Source: a bacterium (lineage in GTDB: Bacteria; Planctomycetota; Planctomycetia; Pirellulales; Pirellulaceae). From it: 34,593 bases of DNA. A program made the position numbers and the translations under genes. How positions within the stretch are numbered: position 1 is the first letter of the stretch; every line of letters starts with the position of its first letter. The notes beneath the pieces are model-generated. The model was not told the DNA's origin, made no database searches, and saw nothing but the letters and a program-made list of their open reading frames with translations. Location: contig JANSWS010000030.1 of the NCBI GenBank assembly GCA_024743355.1, positions 1 through 34,593 of the forward strand, written 5' to 3'. Positions 16,575-24,878 of the stretch are shown here, piece after piece.

Positions 16575-18326
16575 GTGGTAGCAATCTGCCACCTCATGTC
16601 AGTACTGGAGCCACGCATGCTGTCTCGCATGATGATCCGCAAGAAGATCCTCTACAGCACAATTCTGCTGACCTTTACGCTGCTGTTGCTGATGTACAGC
16701 AGTCTGCGCGGAGTTTACGCCTATCGCTCGCTGACCATCACGCTGCAGGAACTGTCCACCGAAATTCGTACGATCTGGAATCTCCGCGAATCGGTAACCG
16801 CCTTGCGTGACTCACTTTCGAAACCGGCCTTTGATGCTTGGGGAATGCATACTCCTCCACGCAACGAGGAATCACGTCACAGCGAATTCCAGAGCCTGCT
16901 GAAAGCCACGATCACGGAGTTCGAACACCACCGCAGGCATATTCTGGGCCGCATCAGGGAATCCGATGTGCGAAATCCTTTGTTGGCAACAACTCAGCCT
17001 GAGTTGGAAACCATCGATGGCATGCTGGAGTTGCTCGAATCCATTGAAAATGACAGCCTGACATTGAGCGTCGACCCATCTCACAATCTCGCGCTGCTCA
17101 GCAACGATCTCGGTCTGTTGTCCAATTTTTTGACGGAGCGGATGGACACTTTTCGCGACGAAATGCGTTCGCGCTACCGCTCTTGGATTGCCGTGATCAC
17201 CGCCTCCGCACTTGCCTCGCTGGTCAACGTAGCCATCTCCTTCTGGTTTTTCCGTCGCTCCGTGGTCCAACCCTTCAAAGAACTGCTCGAGGGCTGCCGT
17301 TCCATCGCCGGAGGCAACTTTGAGCGGCGAATCCACTTGGATTCCAAGGATGAACTGGCCGAGTTGGCGGAGGGCATGAACGGCATGACGGATCGCTTCT
17401 TGCAGATTCGTGACAACCTCAACCAGCAGGTACAACAAAGAACCCGCGAAGTTGTCCGCAGCGAGCAACTTGCCAGCGTGGGTTTCCTGGCCGCCGGTGT
17501 CGCGCATGAAATCAACAATCCACTGGCTTCGATTGCCTGGAGTGCCGAGGCCTTGGAAAGTCGTCTTCACGAAGTTCTGCACCCCTGCAACGCGCAACAG
17601 CCCTATCCCAGCCAGGCCGCCGAGGAATCCGAAGATCAGCCACTGCATGCCAGCCTTTCGGCTGGTGCGGACAAGGCCGCTGCTTCCAGCCCACAGGTCG
17701 CTGAAAGCGTGGTCTTTGACGCGGAACAAATCGATATTCTGCGGGAGTACCTGAAGCGCATTCAGGACGAAGCGTTTCGTTGCAAGGGCATTACGGAACG
17801 CCTGCTGGATTTCTCGCGACTGGGAGAATCGCAGCTTAAACAAGAGACCGATATCGATGAAGCTGTAGCCGACGTTTGCGAACTGGTGCGACACTTGGGC
17901 GAGTACCGGAATCGACGCCTCAAGTATGTCGGTACGCCCGGTGTATTCGCCTGGGTCAGTCCCACTGAATTCAAACAAGTCGTGCTGAACTTGCTCACCA
18001 ACGCTCTGGATGCCACCGACGACGGAGGTCAGGTAGAGGTCAGTCTCGAGGCCAACCAACATTGCTTCACCTTGCGGGTGGTGGATCCAGGCTGTGGCAT
18101 GACCGAAGAGGTCATGAAACATCTCTTCGAACCTTTCTTCACCCGCAGACGAGATGGACGCGGAACCGGACTGGGACTCTCCATCTCCTATCGCATCGTT
18201 CAAGACCATGGCGGTACCCTGGTCCCATCCAGCCCAGGCCCAGGTCGCGGTGCCACGATGGAACTGGTGCTTCCAATTAACCAACTAGATTCGGAAAATC
18301 ATGACAGCCTCAAAGCAGCAGCCTGA
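16575..18326 (+). CDS. membrane sensor histidine kinase (HAMP-HisKA-HATPase)
   Basis: TM at N-terminus, HAMP, GVAHEINNPLASIAWSAE H-box, NLLTNALDATDDGG N-box, VVDPGCGM, GRGTGLGLSISYRIVQDHGG. Confidence 0.93.
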   Translation: MVAICHLMSVLEPRMLSRMMIRKKILYSTILLTFTLLLLMYSSLRGVYAYRSLTITLQELSTEIRTIWNLRESVTALRDSLSKPAFDAWGMHTPPRNEESRHSEFQSLLKATITEFEHHRRHILGRIRESDVRNPLLATTQPELETIDGMLELLESIENDSLTLSVDPSHNLALLSNDLGLLSNFLTERMDTFRDEMRSRYRSWIAVITASALASLVNVAISFWFFRRSVVQPFKELLEGCRSIAGGNFERRIHLDSKDELAELAEGMNGMTDRFLQIRDNLNQQVQQRTREVVRSEQLASVGFLAAGVAHEINNPLASIAWSAEALESRLHEVLHPCNAQQPYPSQAAEESEDQPLHASLSAGADKAAASSPQVAESVVFDAEQIDILREYLKRIQDEAFRCKGITERLLDFSRLGESQLKQETDIDEAVADVCELVRHLGEYRNRRLKYVGTPGVFAWVSPTEFKQVVLNLLTNALDATDDGGQVEVSLEANQHCFTLRVVDPGCGMTEEVMKHLFEPFFTRRRDGRGTGLGLSISYRIVQDHGGTLVPSSPGPGRGATMELVLPINQLDSENHDSLKAAA

Positions 18327-19686
18327 CGCCGGATTGCGAATCCTGTTCGCCGATGATGAGGAATCACTCCAGTCGGTGATGAGCATGGAATTGCCTCGCA
18401 TGGGCCATCAAGTTACGGTTTGCCCCAACGGTGAGCACGCGGTCCGCGAAGCGCAGGGTTCGATCTTCGATTGCTTGATCGTCGATCTGGACATGCCTGG
18501 CATGCACGGTATCGAGGTCATACGGCGGGTGAAAGAGCTATCACCGCAAACCGAAGCGATTGTGTTGACCGGAAAAGAATCGCTGGAAACCGCCGTGGCC
18601 GCCATGCGCTACGGGGCTTGCGATTACTTGACCAAACCCTGCAAACTGAAGGAACTCCAAGAGCTCCTGGTAAAAATTCTGCATCGCCGCGAACTGGTGC
18701 GGCAATACCATGCCTGCAAGCGTCTGGTCGAGCAACAATCCAACTCGCAGCCATTGATAGGCGATCACCCTTCCATGGCCGCCGTGCGACGCCTGGTTTC
18801 CAAAGTTGCCCCGACGCAATCAACGGTACTTATCCGAGGTGAAACCGGTTGCGGCAAGGAGTTGGTGGCCAAGAGCGTTCATGCCGAAAGCCTGCGCAGC
18901 CAGGGCCCCTTCGTCGCCATCAATTGCGGTGCTCTACCGGAAAATCTCATCGAAAGTGAATTGTTTGGTCACCGCAAAGGCGCATTTACCGGCGCGGATG
19001 CCGAACGCGTCGGACTCTTCCAAGTTGCCGACGGCGGAACCATCTTCTTGGATGAAATCGGTGAACTCCCGCTGGCCATGCAAGCCAAGCTGTTGCGAGT
19101 TTTGGAGAGCGGAGAGATCCGCCGCATCGGCGACAACGAACCCTTTCGCGTTGATGTGCGTGTGGTTTGCGCAACCCACCGCGATCTCGAGGATATGGTG
19201 CAGCAGAGTACTTTCCGAGAGGACTTGATGTTCCGCATCAACACCTTCGAAGTTCATGTCCCCTCGCTGCGTGAACGTCAATCGGATATTCCCAAATTGG
19301 CCATTCACCTGTTTCGCCGATTCCGCAATGAGAGCGTGCCCGACGATGCCTTGATCAGCCCGGAAGCCATGCAAGAACTAACTCATCACGTGTGGCCAGG
19401 AAACGTGCGGGAACTGGCCAATGTGATCGAGCACGCCTGCATTCTGTGTGAACATCCACCGATTCGCAAAGAACACCTGCCCCGCCAGTTTACCGACCGC
19501 CGACTCCGCAAAGAATTGAGGTCGCTGGGCCCCATGTCACTCAAAGAGATGGAGCTCACCGCCATCCAAGAAGCCGTCTCGCGGCACGAGGGCAATAAGC
19601 AGGCGGCCGCGGAAGAATTGGGGATCAGCCTCAAGACGCTCTATAACAAACTGAACCAACAGGCGGCCCAGCGCGAGGCCGCCTAG
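18301..19686 (+). CDS. sigma54-dependent NtrC-family response regulator
   Basis: Receiver (LFADDEES, VDLDMPGMHGIEVI), AAA+ (GETGCGKELVAKSVH, GAFTGADAERVGLF, GGTIFLDEIGEL), FIS-type HTH (NKQAAAEELGISLKTLYNKL). Overlaps the HK stop by 26 bp. Confidence 0.96.
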   Translation: MTASKQQPDAGLRILFADDEESLQSVMSMELPRMGHQVTVCPNGEHAVREAQGSIFDCLIVDLDMPGMHGIEVIRRVKELSPQTEAIVLTGKESLETAVAAMRYGACDYLTKPCKLKELQELLVKILHRRELVRQYHACKRLVEQQSNSQPLIGDHPSMAAVRRLVSKVAPTQSTVLIRGETGCGKELVAKSVHAESLRSQGPFVAINCGALPENLIESELFGHRKGAFTGADAERVGLFQVADGGTIFLDEIGELPLAMQAKLLRVLESGEIRRIGDNEPFRVDVRVVCATHRDLEDMVQQSTFREDLMFRINTFEVHVPSLRERQSDIPKLAIHLFRRFRNESVPDDALISPEAMQELTHHVWPGNVRELANVIEHACILCEHPPIRKEHLPRQFTDRRLRKELRSLGPMSLKEMELTAIQEAVSRHEGNKQAAAEELGISLKTLYNKLNQQAAQREAA

Positions 19687-19738: not shown

Positions 19739-20347
19739 TCACGTGAAGCTCCTGACCAGACCCACGATCTGGCCAGACCATCCAATGTTGGCAGGATGAT
19801 AATCGTGCAGCACACGATTGGTATGCTGCACTTGAACTTGCTGCTCCGTACAAAGCAATACGCGCCCCACATGCAGCGGGCTGCTTGAATCGATGCCCAA
19901 GAGGACCAATTGTCCAGCCTGAACCGCCTGCGGCCGCACCACCAGCAAATCCTCGCGACGTATGCTCAGCTCGCTCAGACTGTCATCCATCACCTGGAAG
20001 GCTAGATTCTGGCCCCCGCCCAGCAGACTGGCGACATCCCAATCGGCTCGCAGCTCAGAAAGGTCCAAGCGGCCAATCCCGTTCTGGAAGATTCCCCGAA
20101 TCGGCAGACTTGATGGTGGGGAACGCTCAAGCGGCTCGGTGAGCTCAATAGCCCGGCTTTTGTTGGCCGCTCGGGTGATCATTCCCTTGCGTTCCAAGGC
20201 CCGCAGATGACACATAACGCCATTGGGAGACTTGATGTTCATGTGTCCGCCGATCTCCCGCACGGTTGGACCATAGCCGCGCGTCAGGATCTGCTGGCGG
20301 ATATAGTCGTAAACGGCCTGCTGTTGATGCGTTAACGAACGGCTCAT
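19739..20347 (-). CDS. LexA-family repressor homologue with divergent autoprotease active site
   Basis: 202 aa; LTHQQQAVYDYIRQQILTRGYGPTVREIGGHMNIKSPNGVMCHLRALERKGMI matches the LexA wHTH; C-terminal S24-like domain VMDDSLSELSIRREDLLVVRP. Catalytic Lys and cleavage site altered (see findings). Confidence 0.9.
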   Translation of the reverse strand: MSRSLTHQQQAVYDYIRQQILTRGYGPTVREIGGHMNIKSPNGVMCHLRALERKGMITRAANKSRAIELTEPLERSPPSSLPIRGIFQNGIGRLDLSELRADWDVASLLGGGQNLAFQVMDDSLSELSIRREDLLVVRPQAVQAGQLVLLGIDSSSPLHVGRVLLCTEQQVQVQHTNRVLHDYHPANIGWSGQIVGLVRSFT

Positions 20348-20503
20348 GAATGCTTGTTATGGTGCGCGCAAGTTCACATGGGTCAAATGTCCAGTATCTG
20401 AGTGTTCCAGCATAATCACCCGGATGGATGGATGCACGCCGGTCTGGAAATGTGACACCTGCTCCCCATGAGCTTGAGCAGCGCTACCGCAACCAGATAT
20501 CCC

Positions 20504-22022: not shown

Positions 22023-24419
22023 TCAATGCGTTTGCCCGACCAGATCCAGTCGAACATGGGAGAGACGAAAAGTACGGCGAGAGCCGTCATTGGCAAACTG
22101 TATCGTCACCGATCTTTTGGGGCCATTACCCTGTCCGGAAATGATCTCTCCAATTCCAAATCTTTCGTGACGCACGGTACTGCCGGGACGGAAGTCCGAG
22201 GCCTCGTCGGGCCGATCCTGTGCGGCCTGCTTGGGCCAGGAGCCGCGGAGCCTTTGGATGCGGGCCCGCATCTCGTCGGGGGGCAGCTGACAATCCTCAA
22301 AATCAATCTGACACGAGTCTGCTTCCATCTCGCCGTAGGGAGCGTCGAGCTGGCAAGCCTCATCCCACTCCCCTCGATCCTGGCTCTGGTCCCATGCTTC
22401 ATGTGAATCTCCATCATGACCAGGGGTTCCCCAACCGAAGCCATCGTGCTCCATGCCACCCCAGGCTTCGGTCTTGTCCATCCACTGCATCTCCTGACGT
22501 GGCAATTCCATCAGAAAAGAACTGGGAACACCGGAACCGTGGTTGGAAAAGCCTCTGCGTTTGGCATAGCTGATTTGAAGATGATTCTCGGCCCGCGTTA
22601 TGCCCACAAAGAGCAAGCGCCGTTCTTCCTCCAACGCGGCAGGATCATCTTTGCTGCGAGAATGGGGCAGAATATTCTCTTCGACCGCCGCGATGTAAAC
22701 CTGCGGGAACTCGAGACCCTTGGCAGCATGCAGCGTCATCAGTGTAACTTGCTCTTGGCCATGCACCATGCGATCCGCGTCCGCCTGCAAGGCGGCAAAC
22801 TCCAGGAACCGCTCCAGCGGCGCACGCTCAGACTCGATCGCATTCTCCAATTCGTAGTGGCGGTCCAGCTCATAGGCCTCCGATAACAACTCGTCCAAGT
22901 TTGCCGCCACGTCCGAATCGTCCGACGCATCAGACTTCTGTTTCGCTAGAAAATCCCGGTAGCGAGTCAAGTCGATCGTTGTTTCCAGCAGATCAACCAA
23001 AGGACCACAGGCTAGGCTGCTGATCTGGTCATAGACCTTCAAGAAACTCCTGACGGCGCTAGCCGCTCGACGACTGAGAATGCCCGAGTCAACGCATTCA
23101 CGGCAAGCCACCAACAGGCTTACACCCTGGCGATCGGCGTGCTGCTGAAGCTTGGCCAAAGTCTGCTTGCCGATGCCGCGACTGGGCGAATTGATGGCGC
23201 GTTGCAAGGCGACGTTGTCATCTGGATTGTTGACCAATAGCAGATAGGCGATCAGATCCTTGATCTCCTTGCGGAGATAGAATCGGAATCCACCAATCAA
23301 CTGAAATGGAATCTGACGACGCATCAAGGCATGCTCGAACAAACGTGATTGCGCGTTCGTCCGATACAGCACGGCAAAATCGCTGTAGCTGGCGTCATGC
23401 TCTACCGCCGCCAAAATCTGATCGGCAATATCCTCGGCTTCTTCTCGGGCTGAGCCATACACGGCCAAGCGAACACTCGACCCGGATTCCCTGCATGGCA
23501 GCAGACTCTTCTCTTTCCGCTGCTCATTGTGCTGAATCAAGAAATCGGCGATGGATAGGATCTCGGGCGTACTGCGATAATTGCTTTCCAGCCGAACGAT
23601 ACGCAAATCACGGTAATCCCGCTCCAAATTAGTTACGTTCTGCGCGTTGGCGCCGCGCCAGCCGTAGATGGATTGATCCGGATCACCGGTCGCGGCCAGA
23701 TTGGGCACGTCCACACTCAGATGCCGCACAATTACGTACTGAGCCAAATTGGTATCTTGATACTCGTCCACCATCACATGCTGCAGTCGCTGGTCCCAAT
23801 CGGCACGCAATTCCGGGTGCGAGCGGAGCAAGACGGCCACGTGCATCAAGATGTCATCAAAGTCGACGGCTCCATTCCGCTGCAGTTCTCGCTGGTAGAA
23901 GGGATATACTTGCCCAACCGCGAACTCTTGGCTGGAAAGTGCCTCGGCTTGCAGTATTTCCGGGGTAATCAAGCGGTTCTTGTAGTAACTGATCCGGTTC
24001 GCCAAGCTGCTTAAGCTGGTGTGCGTCAGTTCGAAGTCAGCCCGCTGAACGGCAGCTTTCAAAACTGACTCGGCGTCTTTTGTATCGTAGATGCTGAAGT
24101 TCTCGGGCAGCCCCACCAACCGTGCGTAGCGGCGGAGCAAACGCACACAGAAACCGTGAAAGGTCCCCATCCACACCGGAGCATTTCCCACCAACTCCGT
24201 CACACGCGAACGCATCTCCTCGGCAGCCTTGTTGGTAAAGGTCAAGGCGACCATGCTTTTGGGATCCACTCCCTGCTCGATCAAGTAGGCAATGCGATGC
24301 GTCACCACCCGCGTCTTCCCACTGCCCGGTCCGGCCAGAACCAGAAGTGGGCCGTCGATGTGAGTCACCGCCGCGACCTGTGCCGCATTGAGTCCGCTGA
24401 GTAGATCCCGAGTTGCCAT
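22023..24419 (-). CDS. UvrD/Rep/PcrA-family ATP-dependent DNA helicase
   Basis: ORF 22023..24662; likely start MATRDLLSGLNAAQVAAV at 24419. LAGPGSGKTRVVTHRIA, VDEYQDTNLAQY, ATGDPDQSIYGWRGA, LMTLHAAKGLEFPQVYI, RRLLFVGITRA. Confidence 0.95.
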   Translation of the reverse strand: MATRDLLSGLNAAQVAAVTHIDGPLLVLAGPGSGKTRVVTHRIAYLIEQGVDPKSMVALTFTNKAAEEMRSRVTELVGNAPVWMGTFHGFCVRLLRRYARLVGLPENFSIYDTKDAESVLKAAVQRADFELTHTSLSSLANRISYYKNRLITPEILQAEALSSQEFAVGQVYPFYQRELQRNGAVDFDDILMHVAVLLRSHPELRADWDQRLQHVMVDEYQDTNLAQYVIVRHLSVDVPNLAATGDPDQSIYGWRGANAQNVTNLERDYRDLRIVRLESNYRSTPEILSIADFLIQHNEQRKEKSLLPCRESGSSVRLAVYGSAREEAEDIADQILAAVEHDASYSDFAVLYRTNAQSRLFEHALMRRQIPFQLIGGFRFYLRKEIKDLIAYLLLVNNPDDNVALQRAINSPSRGIGKQTLAKLQQHADRQGVSLLVACRECVDSGILSRRAASAVRSFLKVYDQISSLACGPLVDLLETTIDLTRYRDFLAKQKSDASDDSDVAANLDELLSEAYELDRHYELENAIESERAPLERFLEFAALQADADRMVHGQEQVTLMTLHAAKGLEFPQVYIAAVEENILPHSRSKDDPAALEEERRLLFVGITRAENHLQISYAKRRGFSNHGSGVPSSFLMELPRQEMQWMDKTEAWGGMEHDGFGWGTPGHDGDSHEAWDQSQDRGEWDEACQLDAPYGEMEADSCQIDFEDCQLPPDEMRARIQRLRGSWPKQAAQDRPDEASDFRPGSTVRHERFGIGEIISGQGNGPKRSVTIQFANDGSRRTFRLSHVRLDLVGQTH

Positions 24420-24599
24420 AGAAATGCTAGCAATCCTTTCGCCAGTTGGACTAAATTTTCTCCTATTGTTATACTCGCCCGGGTTCGTGTTCGAAACGCG
24501 TCCCGCAGATGCCGAAGTCGAGCAGCCGACGTCCAGAAGGTCCGTGTTGTGCAGCGGACTGGCTGCCATTCGGCCATTCACCGAAGAAAGGAATCTTAC

Positions 24600-24878
24600 A
24601 TGGCAACCACACGCATCCCAATCAGTCAGGCAGAAGAGATGGCTCGCATCAAGCGCGAGCAACTTGATCTGAGCACGGCTGAAATCGGGCTCACCGTGCG
24701 GACAACGAATTGCTTGGAAGAAAAGGGGATCTTCACGGTGCGTGATCTGCTCAAGAGCACGCCGAAGGAGCTATTGAGCATCTCGAATTTCGGCGAGAAG
24801 ACCCTCGAAGAAGTGTATCTCGCCCTGGAAAAAATCGGTTATTATCGGCCTCACCGCGAGCCGACGGCGAGCGTCTAG
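24600..24878 (+). CDS. stand-alone RNA polymerase alpha-subunit C-terminal domain (alpha-CTD) protein
   Basis: ORF 24549..24878; likely ATG 24600 preceded by GAAAGGAATC. IGLTVRTTNCLEEKGIFTVRDLLKSTPKELLSISNFGEKTLEEVYLALEKIGY aligns with RpoA alpha-CTD. Confidence 0.88.
   Translation: MATTRIPISQAEEMARIKREQLDLSTAEIGLTVRTTNCLEEKGIFTVRDLLKSTPKELLSISNFGEKTLEEVYLALEKIGYYRPHREPTASV

Follow-up and report, generated by a model that had tools for sequence, protein, structure and literature searches.

A LexA protein without the Ala-Gly cleavage site or catalytic lysine in a genus of the Pirellulaceae, and the apparent loss of LexA boxes from its SOS genes

RecA-stimulated cleavage of LexA is the core of the SOS response and is often assumed to be universal. 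We found that the only lexA gene of a member of the Pirellulaceae, carried on contig C556 (the window, i.e. the whole stretch of 34,593 nucleotides that was analysed), encodes a LexA that lacks both the Ala-Gly scissile bond and the lysine of the Ser-Lys dyad. At the level of sequence, the site and dyad are lost, the LexA box is lost from SOS promoters, the DNA-binding domain is conserved, the gene is present in single copy, and lexA is repeatedly absent from related genomes. We consider it likely that this is an orthologous LexA whose self-cleavage was lost in the common ancestry of its genus (g1), within a wider dismantling of the SOS circuit. DNA binding, absence of cleavage, constitutive repression and self-regulation are what these sequences would predict for the LexA proteins of the genus.

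The Pfam model LexA_DNA_bind (PF01726) matched the protein with an E-value of 3.1e-21 (75.3 bits, passing the cut-off of 23.7), in agreement with the LexA-like N-terminal winged helix-turn-helix (wHTH) described in the initial annotation, and a phmmer search of the PDB returned LexA chains only. The Peptidase_S24 model (PF00717) matched at an E-value of 0.002, under its cut-off, and the NCBIfam lexA model TIGR00498 aligned over the full length with 99.0 bits, which fails its cut-off of 110.95. Multiple alignments placed Asn-Gly at the cleavage site and kept the catalytic serine, bearing out the initial readings that GRVAAG of E. coli LexA has become GIFQNG and that this serine survives in VMDDSL. 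The further reading that VTVKRL has become LHVGRV was correct as to the loss of the lysine, whose position falls on Gly161 in an ungapped alignment and on Arg162 with a one-residue shift; the span given for it (19862-19876) was corrected to 19859-19876. The only lysines of the protein are residues 39, 54 and 63, all outside the C-terminal domain, so that realignment is unable to rescue the Ser-Lys dyad, and the better alignment that the initial annotation had allowed for, with a lysine at the dyad position, is impossible. The window protein thus shares with E. coli LexA, the SOS repressor (TIGR00498, PF01726 plus PF00717), the domain order, wHTH, S24 fold, Ser position and length, but differs in having Asn89-Gly90 for the Ala-Gly bond, Ser123 with no dyad lysine, and no C-terminal lysine at all, and in belonging to a genus without the box at recA or imuA. 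The features of the gene are collected in Table 1.

Table 1. Features of the lexA gene and its promoter, with positions in the window
Feature	Position	Strand	Basis
lexA coding sequence, 202 aa, intact, no Ala-Gly site, no catalytic Lys	19739..20347	-	ATG start
Winged-helix DNA-binding domain of LexA (residues 3-66), under strong conservation	20150..20341	-	Pfam PF01726
S24-like fold of the C-terminal domain (residues 80-202), free of lysine and predicted to be catalytically dead	19742..20110	-	model and weak Pfam S24 match
GIFQNG, residues 85-90, former cleavage-site region; Asn89-Gly90 replaces Ala84-Gly85	20078..20095	-	alignment
VMDDSL, residues 119-124	19976..19993	-	
Ser123, equivalent of catalytic Ser119; context VMDDSL vs SGDSM	19979..19981	-	alignment
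LHVGRV, residues 158-163 (Gly161 at 19865-19867)	19859..19876	-	
Gly161-Arg162, where catalytic Lys156 is expected	19862..19867	-	alignment
Element of the lexA promoter, GATACTGGACATTTGACCCATGTGAACTTG, a copy of the genus motif TATACTGRACAT-N10-GTATACTTG that has diverged; candidate operator for self-control, core promoter, or both	20369..20398	-	

An AlphaFold2 model of the protein, as the initial annotation had suggested making, reached a mean pLDDT of 85.7 with 50 homologues (a run with eight sequences gave 65.6). The top Foldseek matches of this model in the PDB were all LexA structures (E 1e-12), with TMt values of up to 0.75 for isolated LexA C-domains and 0.89 for the wHTH, which predicts that the LexA/S24 fold has been retained despite the lost active site. 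This retained fold, together with a conserved last strand, suggests that the C-terminal domain probably survives as a dimerisation platform.

The loss was seen across the genus. We searched 60 related genomes for lexA. In the genus, the C-terminal domain could be read in nine LexAs, and two more lexA sequences were partial at contig ends. The complete Ala-Gly/Ser/Lys set was present in none of the nine, as compared to each of the 30 LexAs sampled elsewhere in the family and order. Their cleavage-site pairs were NG, NG, DS, GG, DS, GG, SG, AG and KG; the serine was kept in six and replaced by Ala, His or Asp in three; and the lysine position held Arg, Gly or Ala, with the single Lys sitting in the member whose Ser had become Asp. 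As eight further species of the genus show the loss, and none of the 30 LexAs from outside it (family and order) does, the loss reflects more than chance or sequencing error; a sequencing or frameshift artefact was ruled out by the equal loss in these eight species with intact frames. In four of the 15 genus genomes, three of which are at least 96% complete, no lexA was present.

These proteins might conceivably still be cut, with arginine or another base in place of the lysine and Asn-Gly or Gly-Gly in place of Ala-Gly, or by a host protease. The serine retained in most members, the arginine found at the lysine position in five other members and the retained fold are consistent with this, and the Lys-to-Arg exchange in several relatives might have left some slow chemistry. 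However, the lysine-free C-terminal domain of the window protein, the three members without the serine, and site pairs that follow no common rule across the genus argue against cleavage, as does the requirement for both Lys156 and Ser119 in E. coli LexA cleavage that is stated in the title of Slilaty and Little 1987, as listed in PMC7567884. We therefore regard continued cleavage as very unlikely. With the scissile bond and the general base gone, RecA should not inactivate the LexA of this genus: its wHTH would still bind DNA, and RecA filaments would be unable to release it.

The initial annotation had also proposed that the genome might encode a canonical LexA of which this one would be a paralogue. 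Such pairs do occur in other planctomycetes (e.g. Rhodopirellula rubra and isolate AM_0621). The search for a second, canonical LexA found none: the genome (8.3 Mb in 823 contigs, 98.5% complete) encodes one LexA-type DNA-binding domain over the cut-off, which is that of the window gene, and no S24 peptidase domain elsewhere at E <= 10. A diverged paralogue is thereby ruled out at this completeness, and we give this idea almost no weight. RecA, DinB, ImuB and DnaE2 are all encoded in the same genome, and across the genus RecA is present in all genomes, DnaE2 in 14 of 15, and DinB and/or ImuB in most. The dnaE2 gene is separate from imuA-imuB in most of the genus (e.g. on contigs C212 and C402 of genome G000), and the intact three-gene operon was seen in genome G007 only.

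A LexA box was derived de novo from the lexA promoters of canonical relatives rather than by experiment, and took the form TTGACT-N-TGTACA-NN-CGTATATTA, with the palindrome TGTAC-N4-GTATA ([AC]TGTAC-N4-GTATAT at lexA). For recA promoters, the box was trained on lexA sites only, which avoided circularity, and p < 0.05 against shuffles was taken as positive. The box was detected at recA in ten of 15 canonical relatives (leaving five without a detectable box) and in none of the 14 members of the genus (Fisher p 2e-4, with no correction for phylogeny). It likewise marked the imuA-imuB-dnaE2 genes of canonical relatives, being present at imuA in 3/3 of these versus 0/6 genus members, and the dnaE2 upstream regions of 13 genus genomes contained no LexA box. 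The window lexA promoter itself scored 3.7 bits for the canonical box (p 0.29), and in 1.2 Mb of one complete genus genome no box was found beyond control level. As defined from canonical relatives, the operator that marks LexA's own and SOS promoters was therefore missing from the genus, suggesting that the SOS genes have been kept and that their operators are gone or changed beyond recognition. At the lexA promoters of Rhodopirellula/Rubripirellula type in the sister Rhodopirellula clade (L081, L082, L088, L094, L102, L103, L124), the box has itself drifted, to about GTGGAC-N4-GTTTAG. Scores at recA were also poor for several species of this clade whose LexA is canonical, so part of the box loss in the genus could be motif drift.

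Without a LexA box, expression of recA, imuA-imuB and dnaE2 should not be LexA-dependent. Together with the genus-wide loss of site and dyad and the lysine-free C-terminal domain, the loss of the box at recA and imuA/dnaE2 supports the original proposal of a repressor uncoupled from RecA-stimulated cleavage. The planctomycete palindrome is similar in form to the cyanobacterial LexA box, RGTACNNNDGTWCB (PMC3091678), and the E. coli motif is reported not to be recognised by planctomycete LexA (PMC3108266). Neither a planctomycete LexA box nor a non-cleavable planctomycete LexA was described in the literature searched, whose coverage was short on subscription papers; a box of the TRTAC-N4-GTAYA type, not found in those papers, would enable regulon mapping in this phylum.

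Two other elements were conserved in the promoters of the genus. The lexA promoters had TATACTGRACAT-N10-GTATACTTG in common (width 30; log-likelihood 131 versus 70 in shuffles), and the strict genus-wide pattern occurred in four genomes with one match each, always at lexA. Allowing up to three mismatches added only one site in each of two other genomes, both with three mismatches and at about control level. The motif may serve as operator, as core promoter or as both, and the fact that the genomes with it have it at lexA alone suggests a regulon that has shrunk to self-control plus any further targets. By ancestry, the window protein is a LexA. It most likely acts as a constitutive DNA-binding protein whose regulon has collapsed; in terms of function it does not belong with the SOS repressors, since the cleavage site, dyad and operators were examined and found missing. 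The recA promoters carried a TTGCYA-N10-GATTCG-N-TAGKATCG-like element (12 of 14 within two mismatches of the core; e.g. L198 on G000:C532, L197, L201 and L202), which was present also in the lexA-free genomes G012 and G002 and in none of the relatives with canonical LexA. It looks like a promoter of the sigma-70 type with additional conservation, and it could mark LexA-independent control of recA. We did not see it at the lexA, imuA, dnaE2 or dinB promoters, which ruled out a new operator shared by the SOS genes of the genus. Its matches in 1.2 Mb of genome G008 were only weakly above control (14 versus 7).

In order to gauge constraint, we used divergence by codon position in place of dN/dS, because synonymous sites were saturated. 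Positions 1, 2 and 3 had diverged by 20, 12 and 58% in the DNA-binding domain and by 54, 45 and 68% in the C-terminal domain. Mean pairwise identity within the genus was 85% for RecA, 74% for the LexA DNA-binding domain and 30% for the C-terminal domain, as compared to 75%, 73% and 64%, respectively, in other families of the order. By these measures the DNA-binding half of LexA is under selection, and the C-terminal domain is weakly constrained and not neutral. Such figures bear on whether the gene is a relic in decay, under weakening selection after the loss of SOS, discarded lineage by lineage and with no important present function. The genomes that lack lexA, the low identity of the C-terminal domain and the failure of the canonical box to exceed control level in the complete genus genome fit a relic; however, the strongly constrained DNA-binding domain, the intact frame of every lexA gene, and the C-terminal domain's second-position constraint (against the third) and conserved last strand do not, and we find decay possible but doubtful.

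A rewired regulator, answering to a different trigger (for instance phosphorylation or a bound ligand) and acting on non-SOS genes, is a tentative alternative and, alongside decay, one of the two main rivals. It would account for the strong conservation of the DNA-binding domain and for the two aspartates (DD) before the Ser position that are invariant in the aligned genus members, and it has a precedent in Synechocystis sp. PCC 6803, for whose LexA such a role has been proposed (PMC7567884, PMC3091678). Against it, the lexA promoter was the only place where a conserved site was found, and limited whole-genome motif work yielded no second shared target. Synechocystis LexA (sll1626), with a Gly-Gly site and Asp for the Ser, is a transcriptional repressor for which phosphorylation may act as a means of tuning and which has been suggested to no longer control SOS genes, and in some cyanobacteria lexA has been lost together with LexA binding sites (PMC7567884, PMC3091678). 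As a natural LexA without Ala-Gly or a complete dyad, it is the closest precedent for the window LexA, which is likewise an orthologue without the site or complete dyad in a genome that has kept RecA. In Synechocystis the Ser was lost, whereas most members of this genus have lost the Lys and often kept the Ser; many non-SOS targets are known for the former, whereas for the latter only the lexA promoter motif was found; and the planctomycete state spans a whole genus, includes repeated absence of the gene and arose in an independent lineage. HdiR, UmuDAb and the non-canonical LexA of Bacteroidetes are S24-family damage regulators outside the classical LexA group (PMC8565304, PMC11332147). They keep their self-cleavage determinants and lack the classical wHTH, the reverse of the window LexA.

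Returning to an orthologue that lost self-cleavage, one speculative order of events, which we would not rate as probable, is that cleavage was lost, recA came under a new LexA-independent promoter, boxes disappeared from the mutasome genes, and LexA stayed on as a permanently active DNA-binding protein. Its rebuilt operator, in this scenario, would consist of two direct half-sites with a spacing of about 22 bp and would lie chiefly or solely at lexA, a gene that several species then lost altogether.

In a tree of a single gene, RecA, the genus formed a monophyletic group (100/99) with the Rhodopirellula clade as its sister, and the lexA-free species of the genus were scattered, forming no common group. 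LexAs with neither Ala-Gly nor the Lys were also found in this sister clade, in one group made up of R. maiorica and strain CA13 and in a second made up of R. europaea, R. sallentina, Aporhodopirellula and R. rubra. Like the window LexA, each of these was the only full-length LexA found in its genome, except in R. rubra, which has two canonical copies besides. As the RecA tree places species with canonical LexAs in between those that lost the dyad, the sister-clade losses were probably independent, in at least two groups. Taken together, the genus and these Rhodopirellula-type parallels would form a natural series, from an intact circuit, through a non-cleavable LexA, to no LexA, while recA and the mutasome are kept throughout. 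This series permits a direct test of what role a LexA that cannot be switched off may have, and of what governs error-prone polymerases when LexA is absent.

Other unusual LexAs were observed among the planctomycetes. Isolate RYN_439 (G068; locus L145 and others) has about a dozen LexA-like genes, and the two non-cleavable ones that we examined have no Ala-Gly and Arg for the Lys, alongside one canonical LexA. A separate group of planctomycete LexAs (L073, L099, L100, L109, L116, L132 and L144) keeps Ser and Lys and has Gln-Gly or Gln-Thr at the cleavage site; two of its genomes also have canonical copies. In the window, a UvrD-type helicase gene (22023-24662, minus strand) lies two genes upstream of lexA, and the genes for a histidine kinase and sigma-54 response regulator pair (16575-19686, plus strand) converge on lexA from the other side.
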